64,000 bases of DNA from Nitrospira lenta (GTDB taxonomy: Bacteria > Nitrospirota > Nitrospiria > Nitrospirales > Nitrospiraceae): the NCBI RefSeq assembly GCF_900403705.1, contig NZ_OUNR01000019.1, forward strand, positions 1 to 64,000, read 5' to 3'. Positions 3,072 to 28,914 of this stretch are shown piece after piece. The notes beneath the pieces are model-generated. The model saw nothing but the letters and a program-made list of their open reading frames with translations, did no database searches and had not been told where the DNA came from. The stretch's first letter is position 1. Each line of letters starts with the position of its first letter. The position numbers and the translations under genes are program-made.

Positions 3072-3087
3072 TGGTCTGGGTCTTGCT
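3072..3087 (+). promoter_or_regulatory. Sigma-54 (-24/-12) promoter upstream of TPR gene
   Basis: TGGTCTG-GGTC-TTGCT matches the sigma-54 consensus TGGCACG-N4-TTGCW with exact spacing (GG at 3073-3074, GC at 3085-3086). Predicted transcription start is near 3098, some 25 bases before the ATG at 3123. The 16 bases are almost the same as those at 5984 and 20269. Confidence 0.8.
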
Positions 3088-4848: not shown

Positions 4849-4857
4849 TCGATTAGC

Positions 4858-5983: not shown

Positions 5984-5999
5984 TGGTCTGAGTCTTGCT
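5984..5999 (+). promoter_or_regulatory. Sigma-54 (-24/-12) promoter before the AT-rich EPS block
   Basis: TGGTCTG-AGTC-TTGCT with exact -24/-12 spacing; it differs from the promoter at 3072-3087 at a single base. Predicted start near 6010. The next reading frames are a 43-codon ORF at 6088 and the DUF4832 gene at 6609. Confidence 0.78.
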
Positions 6000-11939: not shown

Positions 11940-12008
11940 TTCTTATTCCCACATACTATCTTCCCTGCTAGCTGTATGTTTTGACAGAGAATTTAATATG
12001 AGTTGAAC

Positions 12009-13199
12009 ATGAATGCACGAAGCACACACATGAGTAGCATTGCTCGTAGCGAGAGTGAGTCTTGTTTTGAAGATGCCGCAAGCATGAATACTTCTACATC
12101 ATGCCGTCCAGGGAAGGTTGTGCATGTAATTGGTGCTCTAGCTGCGGGTGGGGCGGAGCGGTTCGTATCAGAACTAGTCCCGCACTTCATAAAGTGCGGC
12201 ATTGACGTAGCTCTCATTATTCTGAGCAATAGAGTGGATGCCGTTGGCAGTCAGATGCTTCTTGATCTAAAGCGAGCGGGGATTAAACTGCATACTGGCC
12301 CGACAGTCAAAGTAGGAGCTAGAACAGTTCTTTGGTACATCCATAAATTATTTGAGCAAAAACCTAGCATCGTTCATTTGCATACCCCCAACACAGAGCT
12401 CGCACACTATTTAGCAACCCGCTTCTATAGGTACCCTCATAGAATCTACAGAACCCTACATAGTGTGAAACCACCGGATGCTCTTGCTATGAGGCTGGCT
12501 ATACGAGCAAATAAAGCTGCTATCTCGATTGCTTGCGGCGAAGCAGTCTATCAAGCCCATCGGAAGGTCATGAGTGACAGGATCATAACAGTCGAAAATG
12601 GTGTGCGCTTTAACTGGCCGATTAGAACAGATGAGATCAGCTCAGCAGCGAAATTAAAGCATGGTTTTAAGAATAACCAATTTCACTTCCTAATTGTTGG
12701 AAGAATGAACCACTGGAACCGCCAGAACTCGATTAAGGGTCACGACACTCTGATAGATGCATGGAAACGAGGAAAGCTCGGAGAGAGAGATTGCATACTT
12801 CATATAGTGGGTGATGGCGATCTTCGTCAAAAGCTTACAACATTGGCGGAAGGCGACAACAGCATTATCTTTCACGGAATCCAGAGCAACGTCCATGAAT
12901 GGTTATTAGCCGCAGACTGCTTTGTAATGCCAAGTCGCTATGAAGGCTTGCCTATTGCAGGCATAGAAGCGGCGGGGACAGGGCTTCCGTGTGTCTTCTC
13001 CGATATCGCGCCACTTCGAGAACTAAAAGTACCCCAAGTACTGTGGGTGCCGGTCGGAGATCCTGAGGCTTTGTCACATGCACTGAGTTGGGTGGCAATG
13101 GAGCGGCCTAGTGTGGACACAGCCGAGGTAAACCAATTTCGGAAACGATTTGACATTAAAGATGTTGCACAGAGGTACGCTGAATTGTACTTGCGTTAG
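12009..13199 (+). CDS. GT4 family glycosyltransferase
   Basis: A 396-residue GT-B enzyme. After about 35 variable residues it has VVHVIGALAAGGAERFVSEL, the GGAE loop typical of GT4, then FLIVGRMNHWNRQNSIKGHD, and the donor-site segment VMPSRYEGLPIAGIEAAGTG with the conserved E-x7-E pair. The start is uncertain: ATG 12009 is used, TTG 12003 and ATG 12030 are alternatives, and none has a clear ribosome site. The high number of AT-rich codons matches its neighbours rather than the flanking chromosome. Confidence 0.85.
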   Translation: MNARSTHMSSIARSESESCFEDAASMNTSTSCRPGKVVHVIGALAAGGAERFVSELVPHFIKCGIDVALIILSNRVDAVGSQMLLDLKRAGIKLHTGPTVKVGARTVLWYIHKLFEQKPSIVHLHTPNTELAHYLATRFYRYPHRIYRTLHSVKPPDALAMRLAIRANKAAISIACGEAVYQAHRKVMSDRIITVENGVRFNWPIRTDEISSAAKLKHGFKNNQFHFLIVGRMNHWNRQNSIKGHDTLIDAWKRGKLGERDCILHIVGDGDLRQKLTTLAEGDNSIIFHGIQSNVHEWLLAADCFVMPSRYEGLPIAGIEAAGTGLPCVFSDIAPLRELKVPQVLWVPVGDPEALSHALSWVAMERPSVDTAEVNQFRKRFDIKDVAQRYAELYLR

Positions 13200-13557
13200 G
13201 CGCGCATCTTGCCACACGATTTTCCTGAACACTAATTTGCGGAAGGCGATTTCTCTCTAAAGAGAAGGTGACCGATGTTTAAAGTGTAGCTGTAGGAACA
13301 TAAGGATATACAAATAACAAAAGTGAACAGCTGCATTGTTCAAAGACTGGACAGCGCTTGCCCCTGAAGGTAACTGACAATACTGAACTGCTACATCCTA
13401 AGTCAAATTCATGAGTATGATTCAATATTTTCACCTTAGGCAATATATTTATCGCCCATCGCTAACTATTACGGCATACTCTTTCGTCTATTCGGAATCG
13501 CCAAAGGGCTGATTGAATGGTTTCTATTAGACACTTTCAATTGGCTTGTATTTCAGT
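13200..13557. other. Intergenic gap between glycosyltransferase genes
   Basis: About 350 AT-rich bases without a credible gene. A short inverted repeat TTCTCT-CTAA-AGAGAA lies near 13250, and a sigma-54-like element near 13348 has the wrong spacing. Nothing else recognisable; it may mark an old join between two segments of the polysaccharide cluster. Confidence 0.5.
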
Positions 13558-14844
13558 ATGACACCCGAAGACTGCCGACAGGATGAGAAATTAGAGAGAG
13601 CCTGCCTGGATGAAAACAATTATGGTCTTGAAGACCAGAACATTTGGTTGCACGTGGAATTAAATAGGCACAAATCAACAGGCCTGACCCTTGGCATCGA
13701 TGCTTCCAACATTCGAACAGGGGGTGGAGTAACTCACTTGGAAGAGGTCCTACGGGCTGCGAGCCCATCCGCACAAGGCTTTGCCAAGGTGATAGTTTGG
13801 GCTTCACAGGCGACCCTAGCTCGTATTGAAGATCGCCCCTGGCTGACGAAGCGTTCGAGCCCTGTATTGGAAGGCCACTACCTTCGCCGTGCGCTCTGGC
13901 AACACAATTGCTTAGGAGTATTCGCGAGGACAGAAGGCTGCAACCTTCTGTTCGCACCTGGCGGTTCATTCGCCACCGATTTCCGGCCAGTGGTAACTAT
14001 GAGCCGAAATCTCCTGCCTTTTGAATGGAAGGAGTTGAGACGATACGGTTGGAATTTACACACCTTGAAGTTCCTCCTTTTACGATGGATACAGGGCCGC
14101 TCGTTTAGAAAGGCCAATGGAGTGATTTTTCTCACGGCGTATGCTCGTAATGCAGTCTTGGAAGTAACCGGTACATTGCAAGGCGAATGCATGATTATCC
14201 CGCACGGGATCAACCCCAGGTTTACGAAGCCTCCACGAACACAACGCCTTTTCACTGATTTCACAAAAGCTCAACCCTGCCGCGTGCTGTATGTTTCCAT
14301 TGTTGATATGTACAAGCACCAATGGCAGGTTGCCGAGGCTGTTGCGAAACTTCGATCAGAAGATATACCGATTGTTTTGGAGTTGGTTGGGCCCCCTGCT
14401 GGGGGCATGAATCAGCTGAAAGAAACATTACATCGCGTAGATCCCAAAGAGACATTTATCACCTATCGCGGTGCAGTTCCTTACGAAAAGCTTGACGCAA
14501 TTTATGCCTCCGCAGATATCGGTATATTTGCATCCAGCTGTGAGAACATGCCCAATATTCTGCTGGAAGGGATGGGAGCAGGCCTGCCGATGGCCTGCTC
14601 CCGTATGGGCCCTATGCCGGAAATTTTAGGCGATGCTGGGATTTATTTTGATCCGGAAGATGCTCATAGCATTGCTCGAGCCCTTCGTGAATTGATTGAA
14701 TCGCCTATGTTACGGGCAGAGCTCGCGCAGGCAGGATTTAATCGTGCACGAACCTTTTCATGGACCCGGTGTGCGAATGAAACGTTTGGATTTCTGGCAA
14801 GAATTGCTCATGAAGCATCTACGGGGAGGGGAGGTAACTTGTGA
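13558..14844 (+). CDS. GT4 family glycosyltransferase
   Basis: About 428 residues, GT-B fold. The recognised domain starts around residue 45 with LTLGIDASNIRTGGGVTHLEEVL, followed by a mannosyltransferase-like C-terminal domain: CRVLYVSIVDMYKHQWQV, then IFASSCENMPNILLEGMGAG with the E-x7-E type donor motif and MGPMPEILGDAGIYFDPED. The 40 residues before the domain are atypical and have no clear ribosome site, so the true start may lie downstream, for example GTG 13652. Its stop overlaps the next start (GTGA), so the two are coupled. Confidence 0.82.
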   Translation: MTPEDCRQDEKLERACLDENNYGLEDQNIWLHVELNRHKSTGLTLGIDASNIRTGGGVTHLEEVLRAASPSAQGFAKVIVWASQATLARIEDRPWLTKRSSPVLEGHYLRRALWQHNCLGVFARTEGCNLLFAPGGSFATDFRPVVTMSRNLLPFEWKELRRYGWNLHTLKFLLLRWIQGRSFRKANGVIFLTAYARNAVLEVTGTLQGECMIIPHGINPRFTKPPRTQRLFTDFTKAQPCRVLYVSIVDMYKHQWQVAEAVAKLRSEDIPIVLELVGPPAGGMNQLKETLHRVDPKETFITYRGAVPYEKLDAIYASADIGIFASSCENMPNILLEGMGAGLPMACSRMGPMPEILGDAGIYFDPEDAHSIARALRELIESPMLRAELAQAGFNRARTFSWTRCANETFGFLARIAHEASTGRGGNL

Positions 14845-15695
14845 AAGTATTAGTTATCGGGGCGTCTGGCATGCTTGGCAATGCAGTGCTTCGCCTCTTT
14901 GCAGAAAGTCCTGAGCACCAGGCTTATGGTTCTGTCCGCTCCAACGGTGCGTTACGATTTCTACCAAGCCACTTGCATCCAAATGTCATTGTGGATGTAG
15001 ATGTGGAAAATGCAGACAATCTGACGCGTCTATTCGCCATTGTTCAACCAGATATGGTCATCAACTGCGTCGGCTTGGTCAAGCAGTTGGCTGAAGCAAA
15101 CGACCCACTATCAGCCATTCTCATCAATGCACTTTTCCCGCACCGCCTGGCACAGCTCTGTGAAGTGGCCGGGGCACGCTTGGTACACCTGAGCACCGAC
15201 TGTATTTTTTCAGGGACCAAAGGCATGTACACTGAAACCGACGCTTCCGATGCCAAAGACCTCTACGGTCGCAGTAAATTCCTGGGTGAAGTCAACTACC
15301 CACATGCCATTACGTTGCGCACCTCCATCATTGGCCACGAATTGAACGGGGCGCACAGCCTTGTGGGATGGTTTTTGTCGCAAGAGGGTACCGTCAAGGG
15401 TTTTAAGAGGGCAATTTTCTCAGGCCTACCCACCGTGGAAATAGCCCGGCTCATACGCGACCATGTTATCCCTCACCCTGAGCTTCATGGGTTGTACCAC
15501 GTGTCGGCAAAGCCAATTAGCAAGTTTGAATTACTTACCATAGTAGCAACGCAGTATGGAAAATCCATTGGCATTGTGCCAGATGAGACGTTTGTGCTTG
15601 ATCGTTCGTTGGATTCAACACGCTTTCGAGCTGCGACGGGCTTTGATCCTGCACCTTGGCCTGAGTTGATTCGTCTCATGCATGCTTTCAGTTAA
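14841..15695 (+). CDS. RmlD/WbvR-like NDP-4-keto-6-deoxy sugar reductase
   Basis: SDR reductase of 284 residues: glycine motif VLVIGASGMLGNAVLRLF, VINCVGLVKQLAEANDPLSA, STDCIFSGTKGMYTETD and the Tyr-Lys pair YGRSK. The family is dTDP-4-dehydrorhamnose reductase-like, but the neighbours are a UDP-GlcNAc 4,6-dehydratase/5-epimerase and a C2-epimerase, so the substrate should be the UDP-2-acetamido-4-keto L-sugar. CapF/WbjC/FnlB enzymes of the UDP-L-FucNAc route carry an additional cupin domain and are near 370 residues; this one ends at 284 without it, which resembles the WbvR type that makes UDP-L-RhaNAc en route to UDP-L-QuiNAc. GTG start with GGGGAGG seven bases upstream. Confidence 0.8.
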   Translation: MKVLVIGASGMLGNAVLRLFAESPEHQAYGSVRSNGALRFLPSHLHPNVIVDVDVENADNLTRLFAIVQPDMVINCVGLVKQLAEANDPLSAILINALFPHRLAQLCEVAGARLVHLSTDCIFSGTKGMYTETDASDAKDLYGRSKFLGEVNYPHAITLRTSIIGHELNGAHSLVGWFLSQEGTVKGFKRAIFSGLPTVEIARLIRDHVIPHPELHGLYHVSAKPISKFELLTIVATQYGKSIGIVPDETFVLDRSLDSTRFRAATGFDPAPWPELIRLMHAFS

Positions 15696-15713
15696 TACTC
15701 TCAAGAGGGACTG

Positions 15714-16727
15714 ATGATGTTCAAAGATAAGACCTTGTTGATCACTGGGGGGACCGGCTCATTTGGCAATGCAGTCCTCCGGCATTTCTTACCCGCTGAC
15801 TTTTCCGAGATTCGCATTTTTAGCCGCGATGAGAAGAAACAGGAAGACATGCGTATCGCCTTAAAAACCGACAAGGTCAAATTTTACATCGGCGATGTAC
15901 GCGATTACCACAGTGTGCATGACGCCCTGCGAGGCGTGGACTACGTGTTTCATGCGGCTGCCCTCAAACAGGTCCCTTCATGTGAGTTCTACCCGATGGA
16001 AGCGGTACGCACGAATGTGCTGGGCACTGAAAATGTCATCCGGGCTGCCATTGCCCATAAGGTGAAACGCTGCGTAGTGCTGAGTACGGATAAGGCTGTG
16101 TATCCAATTAACGCCATGGGTATTTCCAAAGCCATGATGGAAAAGGTAATGGTAGCCCAATCACGTTTATGTGACCCAGGGGAAACCGTGCTCTGTGCGA
16201 CCCGCTATGGGAACGTAATGGCGTCTCGCGGATCGGTGATCCCGCTTTTCCTAAGCCAGTTGCAAGCAGGAAAACCGCTCACCCTTACGGACCCCAACAT
16301 GACTCGCTTCTTGATGTCTCTCGATGAATCAGTACACCTGGTACTCTATGCGTTTGAGAATGCCCGTCCGGGAGACATTTTCGTGCATAAAGCTCCTGCA
16401 TCGACAATGGGCGATTTAGCGCAAGGAATGAAAGAAATACTAAGCAAAGCCAATCAGGTCCAGGTGATTGGCACCCGACATGGCGAAAAGCTGTATGAGT
16501 CACTGGTGTCGCGTGAAGAAATGGCTAGGGCTGATGATTTAGGCGGCTACTACCGCATACCCGCTGACTCACGTGACTTGAACTACAATAAGTATTTCGT
16601 AGAAGGCAAAGTTGAGATTTCTAACTTCGACGACTACACCTCCCACAACACCCTTCGGTTGGACGTTGAAGGCGTAAAACGTACATTGATGAAGCTCGAC
16701 ATCATTCGCGAGGCACTCAATGCGTAA
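15714..16727 (+). CDS. UDP-GlcNAc 4,6-dehydratase/5-epimerase (CapE/FnlA/WbjB type)
   Basis: Converts UDP-GlcNAc to UDP-2-acetamido-2,6-dideoxy-4-keto-L-sugar, the entry step for L-FucNAc or L-QuiNAc. The 337-residue extended SDR has LLITGGTGSFGNAVLRHFL, SRDEKKQEDMRIAL, AALKQVPSCEFYPMEAVRTN, the catalytic STDKAVYPINAMG and ISKAMMEKVM. Met replaces the usual catalytic Tyr in the YxxxK motif, a known feature of this subgroup (for example CapE). AGAGGG lies upstream of the ATG. It overlaps the downstream epimerase by eight bases. Confidence 0.9.
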   Translation: MMFKDKTLLITGGTGSFGNAVLRHFLPADFSEIRIFSRDEKKQEDMRIALKTDKVKFYIGDVRDYHSVHDALRGVDYVFHAAALKQVPSCEFYPMEAVRTNVLGTENVIRAAIAHKVKRCVVLSTDKAVYPINAMGISKAMMEKVMVAQSRLCDPGETVLCATRYGNVMASRGSVIPLFLSQLQAGKPLTLTDPNMTRFLMSLDESVHLVLYAFENARPGDIFVHKAPASTMGDLAQGMKEILSKANQVQVIGTRHGEKLYESLVSREEMARADDLGGYYRIPADSRDLNYNKYFVEGKVEISNFDDYTSHNTLRLDVEGVKRTLMKLDIIREALNA

Positions 16728-17859
16728 GCTCAAAGTTATGACCATTGTCGGCACACGGCCGGAGATCATTCGGCTGTCCCGTGTGGTGGCAGAGCTGGAT
16801 ACACATTGCCATCATGTGTTCGTTCACACGGGCCAAAATTACGACTATGAGTTGAACGGTGTCTTTTTCTCAGATCTGGGAATCCGCAAGCCGGACATAT
16901 TTTTGGAAGCAGCGGGAGCCACGGCAGCCGACACCATTGGTCAGGTCATTATGGCTGCAGACAAGGCTTTGGAGGAGCATCGGCCTGAGGCCGTCTTGTT
17001 GCTGGGAGACACCAACAGCTGTTTGGCTGCAATAGCGGCCAAGCGCCGTAAAATCCCTATCTTCCATATGGAAGCAGGCAACCGTTGTTTTGATTTCCGG
17101 GTGCCAGAAGAAATCAACCGACGCATTGTGGACCACACATCAGACATCAATCTCACCTATAGTGAGATCGCGCGCGACCATCTGCTGCGCGAAGGACTGC
17201 CACCGGATCAAGTTATCAAGACGGGTAGTCCGATGCGTGAAGTTCTAGAATACTACATGCCGAGAATTACTGCTTCCGACATCCTCACTCGATTAGGCTT
17301 ACAGGAAAGAAGCTACTTTATAGTAAGTTCGCATCGTGAAGAGAATGTAGATGTTCCAGAAAATTTACAGCGCTTTTTCACAATTGTGAATGGTCTAGCA
17401 GAACAGTACAAGAACCCGGTAATTGTTTCTACCCACCCACGGACACGTAAACGGGTAGACGCGTTAGACCTGACGGCACACCCCTTGGTGCAGTTTTTGA
17501 AGCCCTTCGGATTTCTAGATTACATCAAGCTGCAGACACAAGCCCGTTGCGTGCTTTCAGACAGTGGAAGCATCACCGAAGAATCTTCGATTTTAAACTT
17601 TCCCGCGCTCAACCTTCGTGAATTACATGAGCGCCCTGAAGGGTTTGAAGAAGCGGCCGTCATGCTTGTAGGCTTGAGCCTGGAACGTGTTCTGCAAGGC
17701 TTGAGCATTCTTGAAACTCAACCTCGTGGATCTGAGCGTGCCCTTCGAATGGTGAATGACTACACTCCCTCCAATGTGTCGATCAAAGTCCTGCGCATTA
17801 TCCAAAGCTACACGGATTTTGTTAATCGCAAAGTCTGGCACAAGTCAGAAACCGTCTGA
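16720..17859 (+). CDS. UDP-N-acetyl-6-deoxy-L-hexosamine 2-epimerase (WecB family; CapG/FnlC/WbvD type)
   Basis: Non-hydrolysing C2-epimerase of 379 residues: VMTIVGTRPEIIRLSRVVAE, VHTGQNYDYELNGVFFSDLG, LLLGDTNSCLAAIAAKR, HMEAGNRCFDFRVPEEINRR and DSGSITEESSILNFPALNLR. The NRCFDFRVPEE segment points to the CapG/FnlC/WbvD branch rather than to WecB itself. With the two preceding genes it completes the route from UDP-GlcNAc to UDP-L-FucNAc or UDP-L-QuiNAc; the single-domain reductase favours the latter. Confidence 0.9.
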   Translation: MRKLKVMTIVGTRPEIIRLSRVVAELDTHCHHVFVHTGQNYDYELNGVFFSDLGIRKPDIFLEAAGATAADTIGQVIMAADKALEEHRPEAVLLLGDTNSCLAAIAAKRRKIPIFHMEAGNRCFDFRVPEEINRRIVDHTSDINLTYSEIARDHLLREGLPPDQVIKTGSPMREVLEYYMPRITASDILTRLGLQERSYFIVSSHREENVDVPENLQRFFTIVNGLAEQYKNPVIVSTHPRTRKRVDALDLTAHPLVQFLKPFGFLDYIKLQTQARCVLSDSGSITEESSILNFPALNLRELHERPEGFEEAAVMLVGLSLERVLQGLSILETQPRGSERALRMVNDYTPSNVSIKVLRIIQSYTDFVNRKVWHKSETV

Positions 17860-17873
17860 AGCAGACTTATTCC

Positions 17874-19064
17874 ATGCGTATTGCCATTGTCGCGGACGCT
17901 TATGCCCCCCTTCGGACCTCAGCAGCAATCCAGCTGCGGGACTTAGCTGCTGAATTTATTGCGCAAGGTCATCATCCGACTGTATTAATTCCTGTCCCTG
18001 GCCTCCAATCAACATGGGCTCTCGATAATATTGCAGGGGTAGAGGTCCTCAGAGTCAGGTCTCCTCGAACGAAAGACGTCGGCTATATTCGACGAACCTT
18101 GACCGAACTGTACATGCCGTTTGCCGTTTTGCGAGGGCTTCGCCAAAGCACACTTTCACAGGTTAGGTGGGATGGCGTGGTTTGGTATTCACCATCGATT
18201 TTTCATGGCCCGCTGGTTAGCGCCCTCAAACGTGCAAGTTCATGCCGAAGCTATTTGGTTCTCAGAGACATTTTCCCTGAATGGTCTGTCGATATGGGAC
18301 TTATGGGGCGCGGGTTGCCCTATCGATTCTTCAAAACAATCGAGAACTATCAATATTCTGTTGCTGATGTGATTGGCGTCCAGACCCCGGGGAATCAGGC
18401 GTATTTTTCTAATTGGTCAGGCCGGTCCAAACGTCGAGTTGAAGTTCTGCAAAACTGGCTCGCGGAAGCGCCCGATACCGGGTGCAGTATTTCGGTTCGT
18501 GACACCCCGCTGGCTGGTCGAACAATCTTTGTTTATGCCGGCAATATGGGCGTAGCGCAAGGGATGGGGATTTTGCTGGATCTTGCAGAGAGCTTAGAGA
18601 ATAGAAAAGATATTGGTTTCGTATTCGTCGGTCGGGGGAGCGACTCCCAGCGTCTGCGCAATGATGCATCAGCGCGTGGGCTGGATAACGTGCTCTTCTT
18701 TGATGAGATCGCCTCCAATGAAATTCCCGGACTTTACGCACAATGCCACGTCGGCTTAGTAGCATTGGATCCGCGACACAAAACGCACAACATCCCAGGA
18801 AAGTTTGTATCGTACATGCAGTGCGGCCTACCGGTGCTGGCCAGCATCAACCCGGGCAATGATCTGGCTGCGCTGATCAAGCAGGGAAAGGTTGGTCGAG
18901 TCAGCACCGATACCGATGTTGAGTCGCTTGGATCGATGGCTCAGGCTCTGGTAACCGATATTACCCTGGATGAAAACTTCAAGAATCGATGCAAAACCCT
19001 AGCAGCGAGACTATTCTCACCTGAGGTTGCTGTAAAGCAGATCGTTGCGGCACTACAGGCATAA
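17874..19064 (+). CDS. WbuB-like GT4 glycosyltransferase (L-aminosugar transferase)
   Basis: A 396-residue GT-B enzyme that starts MRIAIVADAYAPLRTSAAIQ, carries the WbuB subfamily signature LVLRDIFPEWSVDMGLM, IGVQTPGNQAYFSNW, VYAGNMGVAQGMGILLDLAE and the donor region KTHNIPGKFVSYMQCGLPVL. WbuB proteins transfer N-acetyl-L-fucosamine and are encoded directly after fnlABC in E. coli O26. The same order here (dehydratase, epimerase, WbuB) suggests it transfers the sugar made by the three preceding genes. It starts 14 bases after the epimerase stop. Confidence 0.87.
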   Translation: MRIAIVADAYAPLRTSAAIQLRDLAAEFIAQGHHPTVLIPVPGLQSTWALDNIAGVEVLRVRSPRTKDVGYIRRTLTELYMPFAVLRGLRQSTLSQVRWDGVVWYSPSIFHGPLVSALKRASSCRSYLVLRDIFPEWSVDMGLMGRGLPYRFFKTIENYQYSVADVIGVQTPGNQAYFSNWSGRSKRRVEVLQNWLAEAPDTGCSISVRDTPLAGRTIFVYAGNMGVAQGMGILLDLAESLENRKDIGFVFVGRGSDSQRLRNDASARGLDNVLFFDEIASNEIPGLYAQCHVGLVALDPRHKTHNIPGKFVSYMQCGLPVLASINPGNDLAALIKQGKVGRVSTDTDVESLGSMAQALVTDITLDENFKNRCKTLAARLFSPEVAVKQIVAALQA

Positions 19065-19413: not shown

Positions 19414-20064
19414 ATGAGACAGTCCAAGAGTTTGTCAATGCTGGCGATCATTGGAGCCTCCCTGCTTACGTTTGCGTTGCCCAGCGCACCAGTATCCGCC
19501 GCGCTTATGCAGTTTTCATTTCAAGGCGACATTGATACAGTTACCGGGCAATTGAAGCCACCACTTACTACTGCACAGAAACTTTCCGGTTCCTTTACGA
19601 TTGAATCGACGACTTCCGGCACATCGGCGGGTCCCAATACCACCCAATACCTCAACATCTTTAAGAGCCTGACCCTCTCTTTAGGCCCAATCGGAGGACC
19701 GGCGATTATGACCGCATCGCTCGGATCAACGGATAATTCGCTTTTCATAAAAACAAGCGGCTCTAATACGACGTATTCGGCACTCGGCCCCTTGACCGGA
19801 ACGTCTGTGAACGGCCGTTCTCCTATTAGCTTTCAGTTTGATGGGAAGGCGAGCGCACCGCCAAGCATCGGAAATCTCTTATCCAGCAACAGTTGGCGTA
19901 TCCTTTTCAGTGGCAATGGCAATCAAATGGTTGCGGGGAAATTCACTGCCCTCACCGCCGTTCCTTTGCCGGCAGCGGTCGTTCTGTTCGGAGCCGGACT
20001 GGTAGCCTTGGCTGGCCTTGGAGCAGGGAGCTGGCGGCAACGAAGGAACAGTATCGCTGCTTAG
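19414..20064 (+). CDS. VPLPA-CTERM (PEP-CTERM) sorted extracellular protein 1
   Basis: A 216-residue exported protein: signal peptide (to about SAPVSA-A, residue 28), a beta-rich Ser/Thr/Gly-rich body with no recognised enzymatic domain, and a C-terminal sorting tail (last about 35 residues) with TAVPLPAAVVLFGAGLVALA, then the basic end RQRR. This VPLPA plus hydrophobic segment plus Arg cluster is the target of XrtD-type exosortase, encoded 1.2 kb downstream. The ATG at 19414 is used because AAGGAG lies eight bases upstream. It is a paralogue of the next gene and is closed by its own terminator. Confidence 0.88.
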   Translation: MRQSKSLSMLAIIGASLLTFALPSAPVSAALMQFSFQGDIDTVTGQLKPPLTTAQKLSGSFTIESTTSGTSAGPNTTQYLNIFKSLTLSLGPIGGPAIMTASLGSTDNSLFIKTSGSNTTYSALGPLTGTSVNGRSPISFQFDGKASAPPSIGNLLSSNSWRILFSGNGNQMVAGKFTALTAVPLPAAVVLFGAGLVALAGLGAGSWRQRRNSIAA

Positions 20065-20090
20065 CCCATATCAGGATAGGTTTTATAGAG

Positions 20091-20124
20091 CAGCCGGCGC
20101 TTCTGCGTCGGCTGTTCCGTTTTT
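20091..20124 (+). terminator. Rho-independent terminator
   Basis: 10-bp stem CAGCCGGCGC/GCGTCGGCTG with one G-U pair and a TTCT loop, followed by TTCCGTTTTT, 27 bases after the first VPLPA-CTERM stop. It isolates that gene from the sigma-54 unit that follows. Confidence 0.85.
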
Positions 20125-20268
20125 CTCCCTCTCACCGATCTGTGTACATTCTGTGCTGGTTGTGACCTGATTCAGAATTGAACCCTCCTCGTAGGCTTCT
20201 GCACACAACAGTTCCAAACAGTCTATTTTGACCCTCTGAATTTCCAATACGTTAGCTCAATCTGGTAA

Positions 20269-20284
20269 TGGCCTGGCTCTTGCT
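20269..20284 (+). promoter_or_regulatory. Sigma-54 (-24/-12) promoter of second VPLPA-CTERM gene
   Basis: TGGCCTG-GCTC-TTGCT with exact -24/-12 spacing (GG 20270-20271, GC 20282-20283); 13 of 16 bases are shared with both of the other two promoters. Predicted start near 20295, some 40 bases before the ATG. A TGTACA lies farther upstream at 20143. Confidence 0.8.
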
Positions 20285-20333
20285 GAACCCCTTGGCTGTG
20301 CGCATGTACCACCTCTACAAGGAGTCTAACGTG

Positions 20334-21014
20334 ATGCAGAAGAACAAACCGTCGTCGATCAAAGGGCTTTTTCTGCCGGCGATCGCGCTGTGCTCCCTGT
20401 TCGTCACAGGGAACGTGGCTCAAGCGGCGTTGGTGAACTATTCCTTCACAGGGGGAGTCAGTAACATCAGCGGCGCGCTGCTCTCGCCCACGATGAACCT
20501 GACTTCGCATGTGACCGGATCGTTCCAATTCAATAATGCCACGGGTGGCGTAGGCGGCAATTATCCCGGCGCCGTGAAAGCCATGACTGTCACCATCGGT
20601 GGCTACAGCTCGTCATTCACCCCCGGGGCAAACGCAATCACCATTTCACAGAACACCAACCTGGGCGGCGGGTTGCTCGGAGATCGTTGGAATCTGGCGA
20701 CTGCAGCCACGGGCCTGCCGACTAGTGGCTACACCCCATACAGCTTCGAACTGCTGCTGGATCGGGAAGGCGGCGGGTTGTTCAGCAATACCAATCTGCA
20801 AAATGCACCCAGCTTGAGCTCCCTCACAGGTACCAGATGGCGCCTCATCTTTCAGGATGCCGAGGGTAACCTGACGCAAGTGCGCGGTGCAATCAACAGT
20901 CTGACAGCGGTACCATTACCAGCCGCCGTGTTCCTGTTCGGAGCAGGGCTCATCTCGCTGGTCGGTCTCGGTGCAGGGGGCTTAAGAAACCTCCGCGGCA
21001 CTCAGCAGGCCTAA
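20334..21014 (+). CDS. VPLPA-CTERM (PEP-CTERM) sorted extracellular protein 2
   Basis: A 226-residue paralogue of the gene at 19414. It has a signal peptide (MQKNKPSSIKGLFLPAIALC ... AQA-A), a beta-rich body starting ALVNYSFTGGVSNISGALLS (compare ALMQFSFQGDIDTVTGQLKP in the sister), and the tail TAVPLPAAVFLFGAGLISLV followed by an Arg-containing end. AAGGAG lies nine bases before ATG 20334; GTG 20331 is an alternative. Frames reaching further upstream would overlap the sigma-54 promoter and are not credible. Likely a surface or matrix protein processed by exosortase; no enzymatic motif seen. Confidence 0.88.
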   Translation: MQKNKPSSIKGLFLPAIALCSLFVTGNVAQAALVNYSFTGGVSNISGALLSPTMNLTSHVTGSFQFNNATGGVGGNYPGAVKAMTVTIGGYSSSFTPGANAITISQNTNLGGGLLGDRWNLATAATGLPTSGYTPYSFELLLDREGGGLFSNTNLQNAPSLSSLTGTRWRLIFQDAEGNLTQVRGAINSLTAVPLPAAVFLFGAGLISLVGLGAGGLRNLRGTQQA

Positions 21015-21030
21015 GCTCACCGGCATGAGC

Positions 21031-21083
21031 ATAGACATGGGCTTGGCGCCCCATCGCAGGGATACGCCAAGCCCTTTGTCTAT
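21031..21083 (+). terminator. Long hairpin terminator after VPLPA-CTERM protein 2
   Basis: ATAGACA + GGGCTTGGCG pairs with CGCCAAGCCC + TGTCTAT (17 bp, interrupted by a small internal loop), with a 16-base loop. It starts 17 bases after the stop codon. Only a short T-rich tract (TTTGTCT, itself partly in the stem) is present, so it may act in RNA stability as well as termination. Confidence 0.65.
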
Positions 21084-21226
21084 CCAACGCTCGATCTTCC
21101 ATAAATCGAAATACGGCAAATGATTGTATATCCTCCATGCCGATTGACGGTCACAATAGATCACGGATGGGGAACTACGTAGATGCCCTCTGAAATTCTA
21201 GTAAGAAGGTTGCCTTACAACAGTCA

Positions 21227-21241
21227 ATCTGGTATCCAGAT
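21227..21241. promoter_or_regulatory. Inverted repeat upstream of exosortase gene
   Basis: ATCTGG-TAT-CCAGAT, a perfect 6-bp inverted repeat 56 bases before the exosortase start. Possible operator; no supporting promoter was recognised. Confidence 0.2.
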
Positions 21242-21296
21242 ACATACCCTCTACGCGGTCACTCTGCTGTAGATCCATTACATCGGGCGCATCTTT

Positions 21297-22868
21297 ATGA
21301 GCAGCAAGCTTTTACTAGGCTTCAGCGCAGTTCTCGCCACAGTTTCACTGGGCTATCTCTACTTTGAAAGCTTGGTGTTTCTGTTTAACCACTGGATCGG
21401 CAGCGATGACTATAGCCATGGCATGTTCGTCCCGTTTATCAGCCTCTTTCTGATCTGGCAATCACAGCACCGTATCGCTGCGGCAGGAATCACCAGCTCC
21501 TGGTGGGGCCTGACCATTGTTGTGACCGGTCTCTTACTATATCTGGTCGGAGAACTCGCCACTCTCTATGTGCTCCAACACCTCTCCCTCTGGATCGTTC
21601 TCGTAGGGCTGGTGATCGGCGCCATCGGCGTCAAGGCCAGCCGCACAATCGCCTTTCCGCTTTTCTATTTGCTGACCAGTATTCCGCTACCCACGTTCTT
21701 CTACGCCGGACTGTCGAGTCAACTACAGTTGTGGTCATCCGCGCTCGGGGTCGGCTGTCTGCAACTCGTGGGCGTGACGGCCTTCCGTGAAGGAAATGTG
21801 ATCGACTTGGGTCCGGTGCAACTGCAAGTCGTGGAAGCCTGCAGCGGAATTCGCTATCTGCTCCCGCTGACCTCGTTGGCGTTGCTCTGCGCCTATCTGT
21901 TCAAGGACCGGATGTGGAAACGCATTACCCTGGTTCTCTCGTCGATCCCGATCTCGATCCTGGTAAACGGGTTTCGCATCGGCATGATCGGCGTTCTCGT
22001 CGAATGGTACGGGCAGGGAGCATCCGAAGGCTTCGCCCATCTCTTTGAAGGCTGGGTGCTGTTCATGGCAAGCCTCGGTCTGTTGATTCTGGAAATGTGG
22101 ATCCTCGCCAGAATCGGATCGAATGATGGAACAGTATCCCTTCAAGACCGATTCTCCTGGATCGATCGCTCTCCGACATCTTCCTCAGCCTTCGCTTCCT
22201 CCTCCGTCTTAGCCTCGCGCGCGCTGCCATCCGCCTATCTCTTCAGCGTGGGGCTGTTGATTCCCGTGGCAGTGGCCTCCTCCTTCCTCAGCCAGAGGAT
22301 AGAAGTTCCACCGGACCGGGCGTTGTTCGTCGATTTCCCCCTGCACATCGAAGAATGGACCGGCACATCCTTGTCGCTGGAGCAGCAGTATATCGATGCG
22401 CTGCGGTTCGACGACTACGCGCTGGTGGAATATCGCCACGACAGTAGCCAGCCCGTCACGTTCTATTCGGCCTACTACCGATCGCAGCGAAAAGGGCAAT
22501 CGGCACATTCTCCGCAAAGTTGTCTCCCCGGCGGTGGATGGGAAATTTCCTCCCTCAAAAATTTGGATTTTGCTCCGGTGTCCGGCACGACTCACACGCT
22601 CCATGCCAACCGCGTCGTCATAGAAAAGGGGCATCAAAAACAAATCGTCCTGTACTGGTTTAAGCAACGGGAGCGCATTCTCACCAGCGAGTACCTGGTG
22701 AAATTCTACTTATTCTGGGATGCCCTCCTGCGCGCGAGAACCGACGGAGCCCTGGTGCGTATCGCCTCCCTTGTCGGGCCCGGCGAAACCGAAGAGATCG
22801 TTGACCAACGCATGCGGCAATTCGTATCAGCCATGCAGTCCGAATTGAACCGGTATGTGCCGGATTAA
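21297..22868 (+). CDS. xrtD: VPLPA-CTERM-specific exosortase with fused EpsI domain (XrtD type)
   Basis: Membrane transpeptidase-like enzyme thought to cleave and sort proteins with VPLPA-CTERM tails. Residues 1-275 form the multi-spanning exosortase domain with the catalytic triad in conserved settings: Cys182 in VVEACSGIRYLLPL, Arg227 in SILVNGFRIGM and His248 in EGFAHLFEGW. From about residue 310 the chain becomes a periplasmic EpsI (DUF3485) domain with GQSAHSPQSCLPGGGWEI. The exosortase-EpsI fusion of about 520 residues is the architecture of XrtD, whose cognate tail is VPLPA; both substrates in this window carry exactly that. First gene of the long run extending to 33818. Confidence 0.92.
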   Translation: MSSKLLLGFSAVLATVSLGYLYFESLVFLFNHWIGSDDYSHGMFVPFISLFLIWQSQHRIAAAGITSSWWGLTIVVTGLLLYLVGELATLYVLQHLSLWIVLVGLVIGAIGVKASRTIAFPLFYLLTSIPLPTFFYAGLSSQLQLWSSALGVGCLQLVGVTAFREGNVIDLGPVQLQVVEACSGIRYLLPLTSLALLCAYLFKDRMWKRITLVLSSIPISILVNGFRIGMIGVLVEWYGQGASEGFAHLFEGWVLFMASLGLLILEMWILARIGSNDGTVSLQDRFSWIDRSPTSSSAFASSSVLASRALPSAYLFSVGLLIPVAVASSFLSQRIEVPPDRALFVDFPLHIEEWTGTSLSLEQQYIDALRFDDYALVEYRHDSSQPVTFYSAYYRSQRKGQSAHSPQSCLPGGGWEISSLKNLDFAPVSGTTHTLHANRVVIEKGHQKQIVLYWFKQRERILTSEYLVKFYLFWDALLRARTDGALVRIASLVGPGETEEIVDQRMRQFVSAMQSELNRYVPD

Positions 22869-22888: not shown

Positions 22889-24523
22889 ATGACAAGCGAA
22901 CTATTTTTTAGCTTCATGACCTCACTGCTGATCTGCATGGCGCTCATTCCGCCCTTGCGGATCCTGGCGGACCGGTTCCATTTCATGGATCAGCCGGGCG
23001 AGCGCAAGGTCCATCAACATCCGGTCCCCAGAGTGGGGGGCATAGCCTTCGCACTAGGGGCCTGTGTCAGCATCGCCTGGTGGGCGCCGAAAAGCGTCAC
23101 CACGCTGTCAGTGCTCCTGGGCGGATTGATCATCCTGGGCTTCGGCGTCTGGGACGATCGAGTGGACCTCGGCTATCGACCCAAATTGCTGGGACAAGTC
23201 CTTGCCGCCTTCGCGGTCATTCTCATCGGAGGCATCCGCTTCGAGAGTGTCCCGTTTTCCCTTGACGCTGAACTGCCCGTGTGGGTCAGTATCCCGGTCA
23301 CCGTGCTCTTCCTCGTGGCCGTCTCAAACGCGGTGAACCTCACCGACGGCCTCGATGGACTGGCCGGGGGACTCTCCTTCCTCACACTCTGCGGTATCGC
23401 GTATCTTGCCCATCTTTCGAACGACTCGTTGGTACTCTTGCTGGCTGTTCCCTTCATGGGAGGCCTCCTGGGATTCCTGCGATACAATACCTATCCGGCC
23501 AGGATTTTCATGGGAGACGGCGGCAGTCAGCTGCTTGGTTTCATGATGGGAGTCCTGGCGATTCTCCTGACCGATTCGTCTAGAGGCCCCTTCAGCCCCG
23601 GACTATCGCTTTTTCTTCTGGGACTGCCGTTTCTGGACACCCTGGGCGTCTCAGCTCAACGTCTGGCTGAAGGACGATCGCCGTTCGTCGGAGACCGCAC
23701 GCACATTCACCACAAACTCCTGGCCATGGGTCTACACCACTATGAAGCCGTCACGGCTATTTATGGCATTCAGGGTCTCATGGTGGCATCGGCCTATTTC
23801 CTGCGCTGGCAATCGGATGTCTTGATCATCCCACTCTACCTTGGCCTAGCCGGCATCGTCTTGGCCCTATTTATTGCTGCGGGCCGAGGCTTCTTTGCCA
23901 AGCCATCCCCCGAAAGCGCGCGGGTCCGGTCTGAGCAATGGCTCGAAGATGTCCTGAATCGTCACTGGCTCCATGATTTGCCCATTCGCTTTCTCGCGGT
24001 CGTCGTCCCTCTCTTTCTGATTACCACGGTATTTCTTCCGACCGAAGTTCCGCACGATATCGGCTACCTGTCGACGGGGCTATTCCTCATTGTCTTGCTC
24101 GGACTCGCATTTATTCCTCGACTGGCACCCTATTTTGTCCGCGGAGGACTCTATCTCGGCAGCACGTGCCTGCTCTATGTCAGTGATGCCTCCTGGTTAA
24201 ACGCCGGATTTCCTATTCCCACGACCTACCATCTTTTGTTCGGGGCCATGGCGATCATGGTCTTGCTGACCATGCGATTCGACAGCCAAAGCCGTTTTCA
24301 AACGACCCCTCTTGACTACTTAATGATCTGCCTGGCTGTGATTGTCCCATTTCTTCCCGGGGTGCAAGCGAATGTGTCATCGCTCGGCTTCTTTGCGGCC
24401 AAGCTCATCGTGCTGTTTTTCTCGTTTGAGTTACTGCTCCATGCTTTTTCCGATCGAGTCAAGCAACTCGGACTGGTCTCACTCTGGGTGTTGTTCGGAT
24501 TAGGGATCAAGATGTGGCTATGA
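22889..24523 (+). CDS. WecA/TagO-like undecaprenyl-phosphate sugar-1-phosphate transferase with extra membrane domain
   Basis: Starts repeat-unit synthesis by moving a HexNAc-1-phosphate from a UDP-sugar to undecaprenyl phosphate. The N-terminal 340 residues are the MraY/WecA fold: RKVHQHPVPRVGGIAFALG, GFGVWDDRVDLG, NAVNLTDGLDGLAGGLSF, the metal-site ARIFMGDGGSQLLGFMMG and the His motif DRTHIHHKLL. Family members usually end near 350 residues; this one is 544 and adds about 200 residues with roughly six more hydrophobic segments of unknown role. It starts 20 bases after the exosortase stop. Confidence 0.87.
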   Translation: MTSELFFSFMTSLLICMALIPPLRILADRFHFMDQPGERKVHQHPVPRVGGIAFALGACVSIAWWAPKSVTTLSVLLGGLIILGFGVWDDRVDLGYRPKLLGQVLAAFAVILIGGIRFESVPFSLDAELPVWVSIPVTVLFLVAVSNAVNLTDGLDGLAGGLSFLTLCGIAYLAHLSNDSLVLLLAVPFMGGLLGFLRYNTYPARIFMGDGGSQLLGFMMGVLAILLTDSSRGPFSPGLSLFLLGLPFLDTLGVSAQRLAEGRSPFVGDRTHIHHKLLAMGLHHYEAVTAIYGIQGLMVASAYFLRWQSDVLIIPLYLGLAGIVLALFIAAGRGFFAKPSPESARVRSEQWLEDVLNRHWLHDLPIRFLAVVVPLFLITTVFLPTEVPHDIGYLSTGLFLIVLLGLAFIPRLAPYFVRGGLYLGSTCLLYVSDASWLNAGFPIPTTYHLLFGAMAIMVLLTMRFDSQSRFQTTPLDYLMICLAVIVPFLPGVQANVSSLGFFAAKLIVLFFSFELLLHAFSDRVKQLGLVSLWVLFGLGIKMWL

Positions 24524-24660: not shown

Positions 24661-27042
24661 ATGAACTATAAACACCTCATCATCGTAAGTATGGCGGTCG
24701 TACTCGTCGCCTGCGGTGGGCCGGAAGAACGGAAAGCCAAGTATCTGACCAAGGCGCAGGATTACCTCACGGCCGGAAACTATCCGAAAGCGCGAGTGGC
24801 CCTGCGCAATGTGCTCAAGATTGATCCCAAAGACGCCAATGCGTACTTTCTGTTTGCACAGGTCGAGGAGAAGGAAAAGAACTGGCGCAATGCCGTGGGG
24901 CTCTATCAAGAAGTGGTCGAACTCGACCCCACCCACAGCGCCGCGTTGATCACCTTGGCGAAGTATTATTTGGAAGCCCGTCTGAGCGACCAAGTGCTCG
25001 CGACCGCCGATAAAGTCCTCGCGAGCGATCCCAGGAATCCACAGGCCGGTGCGCTGAAGATCGCGGTCCTGGCACTGGAGGGATCGCTACCGGAAGCCAC
25101 GCTTAAAGCCGAAACCCTCGCCAAGGAATTTCCCACGGAGCCGGATGTCGCGATCCTGCTGGCTACGCTCTACGGGCAGCAACAGCGAACAGCAGATGCC
25201 GTTACCGCTCTTCGACAGGCGCTGGATGCCCACCCCAAGGACATGGATCTCCTCAATAATTTGAATTCGATCCTGCTCCAGACGAAAGATCTCGCCGGTG
25301 CGGAATCCGTCGCTCGTCGCATGATCGATGCCGAACCGACCGTGTTCGATCACCGCTTGAGACTGGCCCGGCTCTACGACGAACAGGGCACTCCCGACAG
25401 GGCAGAGACTGTCCTGCGCGAGGCGATTGCCCTCGCTCCACAGAGCGAAGAACGCCGGCTTCTGCTGGCCGATTTCCTTCAGACCCGAAAGAACTCGCAC
25501 GCTGCGGAACAGGTGCTCCTCGAGGCAGTGAGCCACTTGTCCCATTCGACTAAACTTCGCTTCGGCCTGGCTGAATTCTATCTCAAGAACGGGCAGGAGC
25601 CTCAGGCACGCGAACAATATCAAACCTTGATCAAAGAACAGAAGGACAAGGCCGCCGGCTTGGACGCGACGGTTAAATTGGCGGAGCTCGACCTCTATGC
25701 AGGGAAGCAGGCCGACGCGGCCAGGCAGATTCAGGAAGTCCTAAAGATTAACCCTCGATCAACTGAAGCATTGGTACTCTCCGGACGCATGGCCCTGGCA
25801 AAGCGCAACGGCAAAGACGCGGTCCAGGCCTTTCGAACCGTCTTGCATGACCAACCTGAATTGGCGACCGTCCATTTTCTACTCGGACAGGCCCATCAGG
25901 TGACCGGCGAAATCAACCTGGCGAAGGAGAGCTTCGAACGGGCTGTCGCCCTCTATCCGGGACAAGTGGATGCCCGCCGCTCATTGGCCGCGCTCGACAC
26001 CCAGAGCGGCAAACCTCAGCAGGCTCGCGCCAGACTCGACGATCTCTTGAAGCAACGCCCGGACGACCTGGCTGCGCTCGACATGCTGATGAATCTCGAT
26101 CTTGCGACAAACAATTGGGCCGACGCAGAACGCACGCTTGAACGACTTAGATCCGCCTCGAAAGATAGTCTAGTCGCGTTCATGGCAGAAGGCCGTCTAC
26201 GAGAGGCACAGGGAAAGCTCGATCAGGCAGGCAGGGCCTATGAGCGGGCAACGGCCCTGGCCCCGAATGAGCCAGAGCCGCTTTTATCTCTCATCAAACT
26301 GGATATCGCACAAGGCCATACCGATCGGACCAGAGCCAGACTCGAAGCGCTGGTGGCGGCTCAACCGGATCATCTGTTCGGCCACGGGCTGCTGGGCGAA
26401 GTACTCGCCATGACCGGTCATCCGACGGAAGCCGACGGCCAATTCAAAGAGGCCACCAGGGTCAACCCCAAGTGGATCACTCCCTGGCTTGATTGGGGAA
26501 CCCTCTGGCTCGCCCAAAAGCAGCCAGATCAAGCGGTGCAGGTTATCCAAGCCGGTCTCACGGCCAACCAGAACAGCGAAGAGTTATACATGCTGCTAGC
26601 CATAGCCCATACCGCCAATGGTCAAGTCGATCCAGCCATCGCGGCCTATGACGGGGCATTACGCTTGAACCCCCGCAATGTACTGGCAGCTAATAACCTG
26701 GCTGTCATGCTCGTTGACTCAAAAGGGGACCCACAGAGTTTACAGAAAGCCTTCTCGTTAAGCCGTGACTTTGAAAAAGACGCACCGCACCCGCTCTTTC
26801 TGGATACACTCGGTTGGGTGCGTCTCAAGATGGGGCAGCAGGAAGAGGCGTTGCGGATCATGAAGGATGCGGTCACAAAAGCTCCGGATGTTCCGACACT
26901 GAACTATCATCTTGGAATGGCCTATTTCCAGACGGGCAAAACATCTGAAGCGAGGGTCCACCTCGCCAAAGCGCTGAAGAGCACTGAATCATTCCAGGGA
27001 AGACAGGAAGCAGAACAGATTCTGTCTCAGACGAAAGGATAG
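24661..27042 (+). CDS. prsT: PEP-CTERM system TPR lipoprotein PrsT
   Basis: A 793-residue lipoprotein: short signal with lipobox VVLVACGG (Cys19 as lipid anchor), then tetratricopeptide repeats across nearly the whole length (for example NYPKARVALRNVLKIDPKDA and SAALITLAKYYLEARLSD). Size, lipobox and position beside exosortase and exporter match the family described as PrsT, a marker of exosortase/EPS loci. The role is unproven; large TPR lipoproteins of this kind often scaffold or guide polymer through the periplasm (compare AlgK). AAGG lies eight bases before the ATG. Confidence 0.88.
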   Translation: MNYKHLIIVSMAVVLVACGGPEERKAKYLTKAQDYLTAGNYPKARVALRNVLKIDPKDANAYFLFAQVEEKEKNWRNAVGLYQEVVELDPTHSAALITLAKYYLEARLSDQVLATADKVLASDPRNPQAGALKIAVLALEGSLPEATLKAETLAKEFPTEPDVAILLATLYGQQQRTADAVTALRQALDAHPKDMDLLNNLNSILLQTKDLAGAESVARRMIDAEPTVFDHRLRLARLYDEQGTPDRAETVLREAIALAPQSEERRLLLADFLQTRKNSHAAEQVLLEAVSHLSHSTKLRFGLAEFYLKNGQEPQAREQYQTLIKEQKDKAAGLDATVKLAELDLYAGKQADAARQIQEVLKINPRSTEALVLSGRMALAKRNGKDAVQAFRTVLHDQPELATVHFLLGQAHQVTGEINLAKESFERAVALYPGQVDARRSLAALDTQSGKPQQARARLDDLLKQRPDDLAALDMLMNLDLATNNWADAERTLERLRSASKDSLVAFMAEGRLREAQGKLDQAGRAYERATALAPNEPEPLLSLIKLDIAQGHTDRTRARLEALVAAQPDHLFGHGLLGEVLAMTGHPTEADGQFKEATRVNPKWITPWLDWGTLWLAQKQPDQAVQVIQAGLTANQNSEELYMLLAIAHTANGQVDPAIAAYDGALRLNPRNVLAANNLAVMLVDSKGDPQSLQKAFSLSRDFEKDAPHPLFLDTLGWVRLKMGQQEEALRIMKDAVTKAPDVPTLNYHLGMAYFQTGKTSEARVHLAKALKSTESFQGRQEAEQILSQTKG

Positions 27043-27052: not shown

Positions 27053-27661
27053 ATGTTTGACCATCAGTTACTCTTGCCATGCCTGAGGCTGATTGCCGCA
27101 GTCGTGATCATCAGCATTGGATCGCTGTCGATTGAGTTACCCGCCATGGCAGCGCCACCGGTTGTACCCCAAGTCGACCCCGGCTATCGGCTTGGAGCGG
27201 AAGATGTCATGCTGATCTCGGTCTGGAAAGATGAGCAACTGACCCGCGAAGTCGTCGTCCGTCCCGACGGCATGTTTTCGTTTCCTCTCGTCGGGGATAT
27301 CCAGGCCGAGGATCGGACCGTGGAGGACATTCGGACCGATCTCATCAAACGCCTGATCAAATACATCCCGAACCCGAATGTTTCTGTCGCGGTTATGAAA
27401 GTGTTGAGCTATAAAATCTATGTCGTCGGACGGGTGAACAAGCCAGGAGAATATCTGATCGGCCACTATACCGACGTGCTTCAAGCGTTGAGTCTGGCAG
27501 GAGGGCTGACGCCCTTTGCCGCGGAAAACGATATCAAGGTGATCCGGCGGGTGAGAGGACAGCAGCAGGTCTTCCCCGTGCGCTACGGAGACCTCCGCAA
27601 AGGACAGGATCTGGAACAGAACATTCTTCTCCAGCGCGGTGACACCGTGATGGTGCCGTAG
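27053..27661 (+). CDS. Wza/EpsE-like polysaccharide export protein
   Basis: A 202-residue exported protein: signal peptide ending near PAMA-A, a Poly_export domain (GYRLGAEDVMLISVWKDEQL ... PDGMFSFPLVGDIQAEDRTVEDI) and one SLBB domain (YKIYVVGRVNKPGEYLIGHY). It corresponds to the exporter found with exosortases (EpsE/GumB-like). No lipobox cysteine and no long C-terminal helix are visible, unlike Wza, so the outer-membrane pore may come from the barrel protein encoded next. GAGG lies eight bases before the ATG; it follows prsT by ten bases. Confidence 0.9.
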   Translation: MFDHQLLLPCLRLIAAVVIISIGSLSIELPAMAAPPVVPQVDPGYRLGAEDVMLISVWKDEQLTREVVVRPDGMFSFPLVGDIQAEDRTVEDIRTDLIKRLIKYIPNPNVSVAVMKVLSYKIYVVGRVNKPGEYLIGHYTDVLQALSLAGGLTPFAAENDIKVIRRVRGQQQVFPVRYGDLRKGQDLEQNILLQRGDTVMVP

Positions 27662-27664: not shown

Positions 27665-28903
27665 ATGCACTGGAGGCGAGTAGGTCAAGACTGCGGCGGA
27701 TTTCAAATCTTCCGGCGAGGCCTTACCCGGGGCATCCTCTGGATCTGCCTCGTAGGAATTGGCATGGTATCCCAAAGTCACGCGGCTGAGTGGTCGATCG
27801 TTCCATCGCTCGGAGTGAAAGGCGTGTATAACGACAACCTCCTTCTCACTCCGTTACCGCACGATGCGACCTATGGGTATTGGATCTCGCCTGCGGCCGA
27901 ATTTGCCGGAAAAACGGAGCGGCTGGAAGTGAGCGGAAAAGTGGCGGCCGATTTCGTCTCTTACTATGGGGGCGAGGAAACAAACTTTACCAACATCTTC
28001 CTGCCTCTTTCGGTACGCTACAAAACGGAAAAGGACCTCTTGGGATTTACCGGGGGCTTTACCCGTGATAACACCTTGATGAGCGAACTTCTAACGACCG
28101 GAATCGTAGTGCGGTTTACGCAACGGAACCAGTGGAATGCGAACCCCACATGGACCCATCGCCTCACGGAGAAGCTTTCCGTCCAATCATCTGTTCAATT
28201 TACGGACACCACCTATGAGGATGGCCGCCGACTCGGACTCGTTAACTACCAGCTTCTTGGCGGCTCCGGCGGGTTACTCTATCAATTGACTGAACAGGAC
28301 CAGGTCCAAATAACAGGCAATTATACGAGCTTCTATACGACGGCCGCGTCCTCCGACTTCCGAGCCTCAATACCAGGCCTCATGCTGACCGTAGCCCATG
28401 TGTTCACGGAATCCCTTACGGGAACCGCGTTCGGCGGCCCCCGATTTATCAGTACAACCAATCAGGCGCCGGGAGGCGACATCAAAGCACATGAAACCAT
28501 CTGGATCTATGGAGCGAGCCTCGCCAAGCAATTCGAGAGCGGGTCTCTCCAACTCAGCGCATCTCGCGATATCATTCCCAGCGGGTTTGGCTTGCTGATC
28601 CAGACAGATCGAGTTAGTCTCTCAGGTTCCTATAAGATTTCCGAGACCATCACAGGCTCTCTTGATGCCAATGGCTATATTACCTCCGGCGCCACGCACA
28701 CCATCTCGGGAGGGACACTTGCCGAACAACGTTATGTCGGCATATCGCCCAAGCTGGCCTGGAAGTTTCTCGAGTGGTGGAAGCTGGAAGCCTTCTATAC
28801 CTACGGCAGACGCGACGTCGATGGCTTTGCCACAACGGCGACCTCCAACGCCGCAATGCTGATGCTGACCTATTATCCACCGAAACTCGCACTATCAAAC
28901 TGA
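27665..28903 (+). CDS. Outer-membrane beta-barrel protein of the EPS/exosortase system
   Basis: A 412-residue protein with a long basic N-region and a signal peptide (cleavage near SQSHA-A), then alternating amphipathic beta-strands to a C-terminal strand. GVKGVYNDNLLLTPLPHDAT and the overall pattern match the putative beta-barrel porin 2 family and the outer-membrane proteins recorded in PEP-CTERM loci. It probably forms or lines the outer-membrane passage for the polymer. It starts three bases after the exporter stop, with a weak ribosome site, suggesting coupling. Confidence 0.78.
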   Translation: MHWRRVGQDCGGFQIFRRGLTRGILWICLVGIGMVSQSHAAEWSIVPSLGVKGVYNDNLLLTPLPHDATYGYWISPAAEFAGKTERLEVSGKVAADFVSYYGGEETNFTNIFLPLSVRYKTEKDLLGFTGGFTRDNTLMSELLTTGIVVRFTQRNQWNANPTWTHRLTEKLSVQSSVQFTDTTYEDGRRLGLVNYQLLGGSGGLLYQLTEQDQVQITGNYTSFYTTAASSDFRASIPGLMLTVAHVFTESLTGTAFGGPRFISTTNQAPGGDIKAHETIWIYGASLAKQFESGSLQLSASRDIIPSGFGLLIQTDRVSLSGSYKISETITGSLDANGYITSGATHTISGGTLAEQRYVGISPKLAWKFLEWWKLEAFYTYGRRDVDGFATTATSNAAMLMLTYYPPKLALSN

Positions 28904-28914
28904 GTGAACTAATT

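Follow-up and report, generated by a model that had tools for sequence, protein, structure and literature searches.

A likely dedicated XrtD exosortase module with a predicted sigma-54 promoter beside a many-target paralogue in Nitrospira lenta

In the XrtA/PEP-CTERM system with PrsK, PrsR and PrsT, a -24/-12 promoter is accompanied by an upstream element some 60 nucleotides (nt) away, termed motif 1 (17 nt ending in TTTACA), and the 2006 study reported this motif pair in Proteobacteria only (PMC1569441). PepA of Aquincola, a sorted protein of the same type, is an RpoN-dependent floc protein (PMC9850573). Dedicated systems have been described for rhombosortase and its GlyGly-CTERM targets, where the enzyme adjoins its target when targets are few and lies distant from them when they are many (PMC3237569). 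For the XrtD exosortases (TIGR04152) and the VPLPA-CTERM tails (TIGR03370), no paper on XrtD or relevant to Nitrospira exosortases was found in the literature searched. Here, we analysed positions 1 to 64,000 of contig NZ_OUNR01000019.1 of Nitrospira lenta (assembly GCF_900403705.1; this 64,000-nt stretch is called the window), in which two small genes with VPLPA-like tails precede an xrtD gene at 19,414 to 22,868. We consider it likely that this locus is a dedicated, sigma-54-controlled XrtD module that would export small beta-barrel proteins into an exopolysaccharide (EPS) and would be kept apart from a second, paralogous XrtD line; we infer cleavage, export and orthogonality by comparison. 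The initial annotation of the locus did not include the second XrtD line, the sigma-54 promoter or the box upstream of it.

That annotation had described two tandem paralogues with TAVPLPAA tails followed by an exosortase fused to EpsI with Cys182, Arg227 and His248, and all of these elements were found where it had placed them. Substrate 1 (19414..20064, forward strand, 216 aa) contains a signal peptide, an all-beta domain, the TAVPLPAA tail, a transmembrane helix and a basic end, while substrate 2, the conserved one of the two (20334..21014, forward strand, 226 aa), has a signal peptide, a beta-barrel domain (residues 33-193) and a tail of the same type; the two proteins share 33% identity across 204 alignment columns (E 2e-19). 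Both ATG start codons, at 19414 and 20334, were chosen because of their ribosome-binding site (AAGGAG in each case) and the signal peptide, which was judged by inspection from a basic start, a hydrophobic stretch and an A-x-A conserved ahead of the domain. The alternative, longer ATG of the substrate 2 frame (20268) overlaps the sigma-54 promoter described below. The xrtD gene (21297..22868, forward strand) encodes 523 aa, with PF09721 at 17-270, PF11984 (DUF3485/EpsI) at 319-520 and all three catalytic residues intact. Its product reaches 544.8 bits with TIGR04152 (curated cut-off 400), which upholds the assignment to XrtD, whereas with the second-best model, that of the likewise EpsI-fused exosortase W (NF038142), it obtains 316.6 bits and falls below the cut-off of 425. 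Its closest named relatives come from Nitrospira assemblies (86-90% identity).

The enzyme is a full member of its subfamily with the EpsI fusion and the Cys/Arg/His set, but the tails are less typical. They possess the VPLPA motif, the transmembrane helix and the basic end, as seen in the alignment, and score 14.7 and 11.6 bits with the curated VPLPA-CTERM model TIGR03370, under its cut-off of 25.35. The earlier label therefore stands for the architecture and not for the curated model and, since that model is not reached, the window tail is by its sequence a distinct class, to be called the A-type variant (VPLPAAVxLFGAGLxxLxGLGAGxxRxxR, with a short basic end). Across the genome (3.76 Mb, 22 contigs), a hidden Markov model built on the local tails identified exactly two A-type tails, both at the locus (82.7 bits for substrate 1 and 83.4 bits for substrate 2), with the next among the matches listed at 32.9. 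The initial annotation had considered that additional VPLPA substrates elsewhere or another exosortase would tell against its compact module, and the genome contains both. Eleven other VPLPA-type tails lie on a different contig, C1, scoring 20-38 bits with TIGR03370 and all outscoring both window tails, and a second full XrtD is encoded at C1:76723-78174 (TIGR04152, 512.9 bits; 53% identical to the window enzyme), with most of the eleven genes 25-50 kb from its cluster. These canonical tails mostly read P[VI]PVPAAxWLFGSG followed by a basic cluster; they have [VI]P[LVI]PAA in common with the A-type, in which the canonical W is replaced by x and GSG by GAG. The second XrtD belongs to a complete cluster of its own (G000:C1:70804-78357, equivalent to L030:10804-18357) that repeats the downstream gene order of the window (WecA-like protein, PrsT, export protein, outer-membrane protein) at 47-64% protein identity.

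Comparison across Nitrospira genomes separated the two lines. In the XrtD protein tree, the window enzyme belongs to clade A, the second enzyme to clade B, and a clade C was also recovered. An A-type protein lies directly upstream of clade-A XrtD in 38 of 41 loci and the remaining 3 begin at contig ends, so that all 38 testable loci show this arrangement, more than chance would explain, each with one to three small secreted A-type proteins; none of 10 clade-B loci adjoins such a protein. Canonical tails numbered 0-2 in the 20 genomes with clade A only, compared with 1-29 in the 12 genomes with both clades (Mann-Whitney p 2.7e-6). A kinship-aware test on the tree, which set aside tails beside another exosortase class, gave 7 independent concordant pairs, 0 discordant and 1 without difference (p 0.016), and along the clade-A tree clade B appears or disappears some ten times, with the canonical tails following. 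The complete, single-contig A-only genomes G022 and G024 contain no canonical tails, and their two or three A-type proteins each time lie near XrtD; the residual tails of the A-only genomes G012, G030, G036 and G037 lie no more than 10 kb from another exosortase class. Given the neighbour counts, the co-distribution and the two complete A-only genomes, we conclude from these comparisons that canonical tails go with clade B and A-type tails with clade A. The pairing holds despite the second XrtD and the eleven tails elsewhere, because those tails track clade B and the local ones form a separate class; the compact module with its own substrates thus stands by co-distribution and by its private tail class, and not for the reason first given.

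A single shared pool, in which both XrtD enzymes process every VPLPA-like tail and, of some thirteen substrates, the clade-A neighbours simply lie closest, would fit two enzymes that are 53% identical and far over the TIGR04152 cut-off, as well as the [VI]P[LVI]PAA core of both tail classes. We regard it as unlikely, since the tail classes are bimodal, canonical tails vary with clade B and not with clade A, and A-type proteins are lacking beside clade-B loci. Much less credible still, with very little weight in our judgement, is linkage without function, by which a substrate gene would travel along with xrtD as the EPS cassette moves, without being its target: the surrounding EPS cluster does differ between species and some A-type genes lie elsewhere than beside xrtD (for example at G037:C3), but the adjacency is kept in every testable locus, and conservation in the alignment peaks in the tail while the rest of the protein changes fast, as expected of a recognition signal. 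Two separate, orthogonal XrtD lines are the reading that we retain as probable. We also lean slightly towards the fuller proposal of two exosortases of one subfamily side by side with orthogonal tail codes, a private sigma-54-switched pair and a many-target line, whose recognition would have split after duplication.

Other pairs were observed in the same comparison. All six clade-C loci have their own variant tail upstream; in L127, L132, L133, L134, L146 and L149 one adjacent protein each carries a third tail class, VPLPAAVWLFGAGLIALVGLGSRGL, and by tail and position clade-C XrtD and this protein form a further private pair. Single canonical tails at G012:C1:518590, G030:C70:27424 and G037:C32:37084 lie about 3 kb from the further exosortase class mentioned above, which scores about 120-137 bits with TIGR04152 over the exosortase part only, and probably constitute with it another pair of one enzyme and one target.

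Next, the upstream region of substrate 2 was compared. A predicted sigma-54 (-24/-12) promoter, TGGCCTGGCTCTTGCT, lies at 20269..20284 on the forward strand and is conserved in G022 and G029. In most clade-A substrates of other genomes the element, mostly TGGYCYGGGATTTGCT, stands 64-89 nt ahead of the start codon, and GG-N10-GC with the TTGCT end is retained across orthologues. Further upstream, a conserved box at 20169..20208 (forward strand), with AATTGAAC at 20176, is a candidate enhancer-binding-protein site; in the orthologues compared, the core of the box lies 90-94 nt ahead of the -24 element, and for substrate 2 the distance is about 92 nt. The matrix of the box, with flanks, was built from these same loci, and four further loci that did not enter it (L117, L126, L131 and L144) score 35-46. 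The A-type substrate at G037:C3, far from xrtD, carries both the sigma-54 site and the box, while in the close relative G022 the position is kept but the box is degenerate. The pair of site and box was not found ahead of the canonical substrates on C1 or at clade-B or clade-C loci. Like the XrtA system (PMC1569441), the module has an EPS cluster, PrsT and a -24/-12 promoter preceded by another element at a spacing of some 60 nt, and as with RpoN-dependent pepA (PMC9850573) a sorted protein would be under sigma-54 control; the exosortase class and the tail differ, and the window box, at a spacing similar to that of motif 1, has other letters, motif 1 being compared by its description.

Two more sigma-54-type sites lie on the same strand of the window, one at 3072..3087 ahead of a tetratricopeptide repeat (TPR) gene (3123), gmd and fcl, conserved in G022, and one at 5984..5999 past fcl and ahead of the variable glycosyltransferase cassette, conserved in G022 and G029. 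The three window sites could represent another conserved element and not RpoN promoters, a reading to which we give a low probability. It is favoured by two observations: a relaxed pattern was not enriched genome-wide (8 matches against 6 in a reversed control), for which reason our argument rests on position and conservation and not on number, and no regulator reaches the cut-off for PrsR, the known activator. On the other side, a stricter pattern matches 3 times in the window against 0.02 expected, all on one strand; the sites at 3072 and 5984 hold their places (both in G022, the second in G029) even though a different set of glycosyltransferase genes separates them from the substrate; the form of the promoter is retained in orthologues; the genome encodes RpoN; and pepA of Aquincola has been proven to depend on RpoN (PMC9850573). 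We keep RpoN promoters as the preferred reading. Among the many NtrC-type regulators of the genome, the best PrsR score (TIGR02915) is 443.6 bits against a cut-off of 502.6, and PrsR was rejected as the activator; PrsK (TIGR02916) reaches at best 130.5 against 300 among kinases beside three regulators. Between the site at 5984 and a DUF4832/DUF4874 gene, about 570 nt (5984-6555) show no clear gene and may possibly be a long leader; Rfam found no RNA there or in the rest of the window.

The substrates themselves gave a confident fold. The AlphaFold model of substrate 2 shows a beta-barrel-like domain at 33-193, mostly above 90 in predicted local distance difference test (pLDDT), followed by the transmembrane helix; substrate 1 is similar in fold, and the helices span 197-216 and 187-214 in the models of the two substrates. 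The structure prediction proposed in the initial annotation thus yielded a fold; no match in the family and fold searches pointed to a function. Pfam and NCBIfam gave nothing over cut-off for the mature domains, the best E value in the PDB sequence search was 0.36, and Foldseek had no match at E 0.001. VIA-align scored outer-membrane and designed beta-barrels best (Z 8.9), near the background expected of such models, and so no function was drawn from the fold. A CsgF match was set aside (5 of 36 family members, best E 0.0085). In two genomes, the A-type substrate beside clade-A XrtD looks frameshifted or truncated (L113:7660-7815 and L100:1505-1714).

The locus had been tied to an EPS cluster, and the neighbouring genes, all on the forward strand, bear this out: the module is embedded in a cluster that has a PrsT, an export protein and a chain-length determinant of its own. 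Upstream lie gmd and fcl for GDP-fucose synthesis (3841..5820) and a cassette with a flippase-like protein, glycosyltransferases and sugar-nucleotide genes (8083..19064). Downstream follow a WecA-like phospho-sugar transferase (Glycos_transf_4, 22889..24523; 47% identical to its counterpart in the second XrtD cluster), prsT, the TPR protein of PEP-CTERM systems (24661..27042; TIGR02917, 329 bits, cut-off 312.2), a polysaccharide export protein (Poly_export, SLBB; 27053..27661), a PEP-CTERM-system-associated outer-membrane protein (27665..28903; TIGR03016-like, 50 bits, under its cut-off), a chain-length determinant of XrtA-type systems (28774..30687; TIGR03007-like, 255.9 bits, cut-off 278.85; true start probably within the frame), a tyrosine autokinase of PEP-CTERM systems (30714..31544; TIGR03018-like) and a PEP-CTERM-associated ATPase (31551..32972; TIGR03015-like). 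The cassette at 8083-19064, between conserved sigma-54 sites, differs from those of G022 and G029: its FnlA-like gene was not found in the stretches of these genomes compared and another transferase is only about 25-28% identical. Because the cassette differs between species, the polysaccharide of the cluster is probably species-specific.

Building on the PEP-CTERM model (PMC1569441) and on PepA of Aquincola (PMC9850573), we propose the following sequence of events. RpoN and an NtrC-type activator would switch on the substrate along with the EPS genes, Sec would export it and the tail would retain it in the inner membrane, where XrtD-A, through Cys182, Arg227 and His248, would cleave at the VPLPA motif. 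The beta-barrel domain would then be handed on, probably to an acceptor in the envelope or the EPS, and end as a matrix or surface component, and clade-B XrtD would do likewise for the eleven canonical proteins of the PVPVPAAxWLFGSG type.

Several points weigh against this proposal. Patterns of co-occurrence do not establish that either enzyme, XrtD-A or XrtD-B, passes over the tail class of the other, and a search of the literature brought up no biochemical demonstration, for any XrtD, of cleavage, export or surface location. Neither the sigma-54 site nor the box precedes substrate 1, leaving one of the two substrates under that control, and the sites at 3072 and 5984 lack the AATTGAAC box, for which reason a different activator may act on them. 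In G013, a single weak canonical-like tail occurs although clade B is absent, and most genomes compared are metagenome assemblies of uneven completeness. The deletion experiment for which the initial annotation judged the locus tractable is doubtful, because few genetic tools are available for Nitrospira.

Since the genome has just two A-type tails and both belong to this locus, the module is, by the logic of few and near targets, a dedicated system as described in PMC3237569, with a many-target paralogue encoded in the same genome. Clades A and B thereby show the same few-near and many-far contrast as rhombosortase, but rhombosortase is an unrelated serine protease, and in Nitrospira both forms coexist as paralogues in one cell; within XrtD/VPLPA-CTERM, the window module likewise differs in having few adjacent targets in place of many scattered ones. 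These results bear on what decides the choice of tail by an exosortase and on what sorted proteins do. Nitrospira offers paralogous enzyme-tail pairs within one genome which, if their orthogonality is true, would amount to a natural specificity experiment, with W/GSG versus x/GAG as candidate specificity residues and substrate 2 as a short target whose fold is predicted with confidence. They also suggest, from the conserved promoter sequences, that sigma-54 control of sorted proteins, known from Proteobacteria, occurs in Nitrospirota too.

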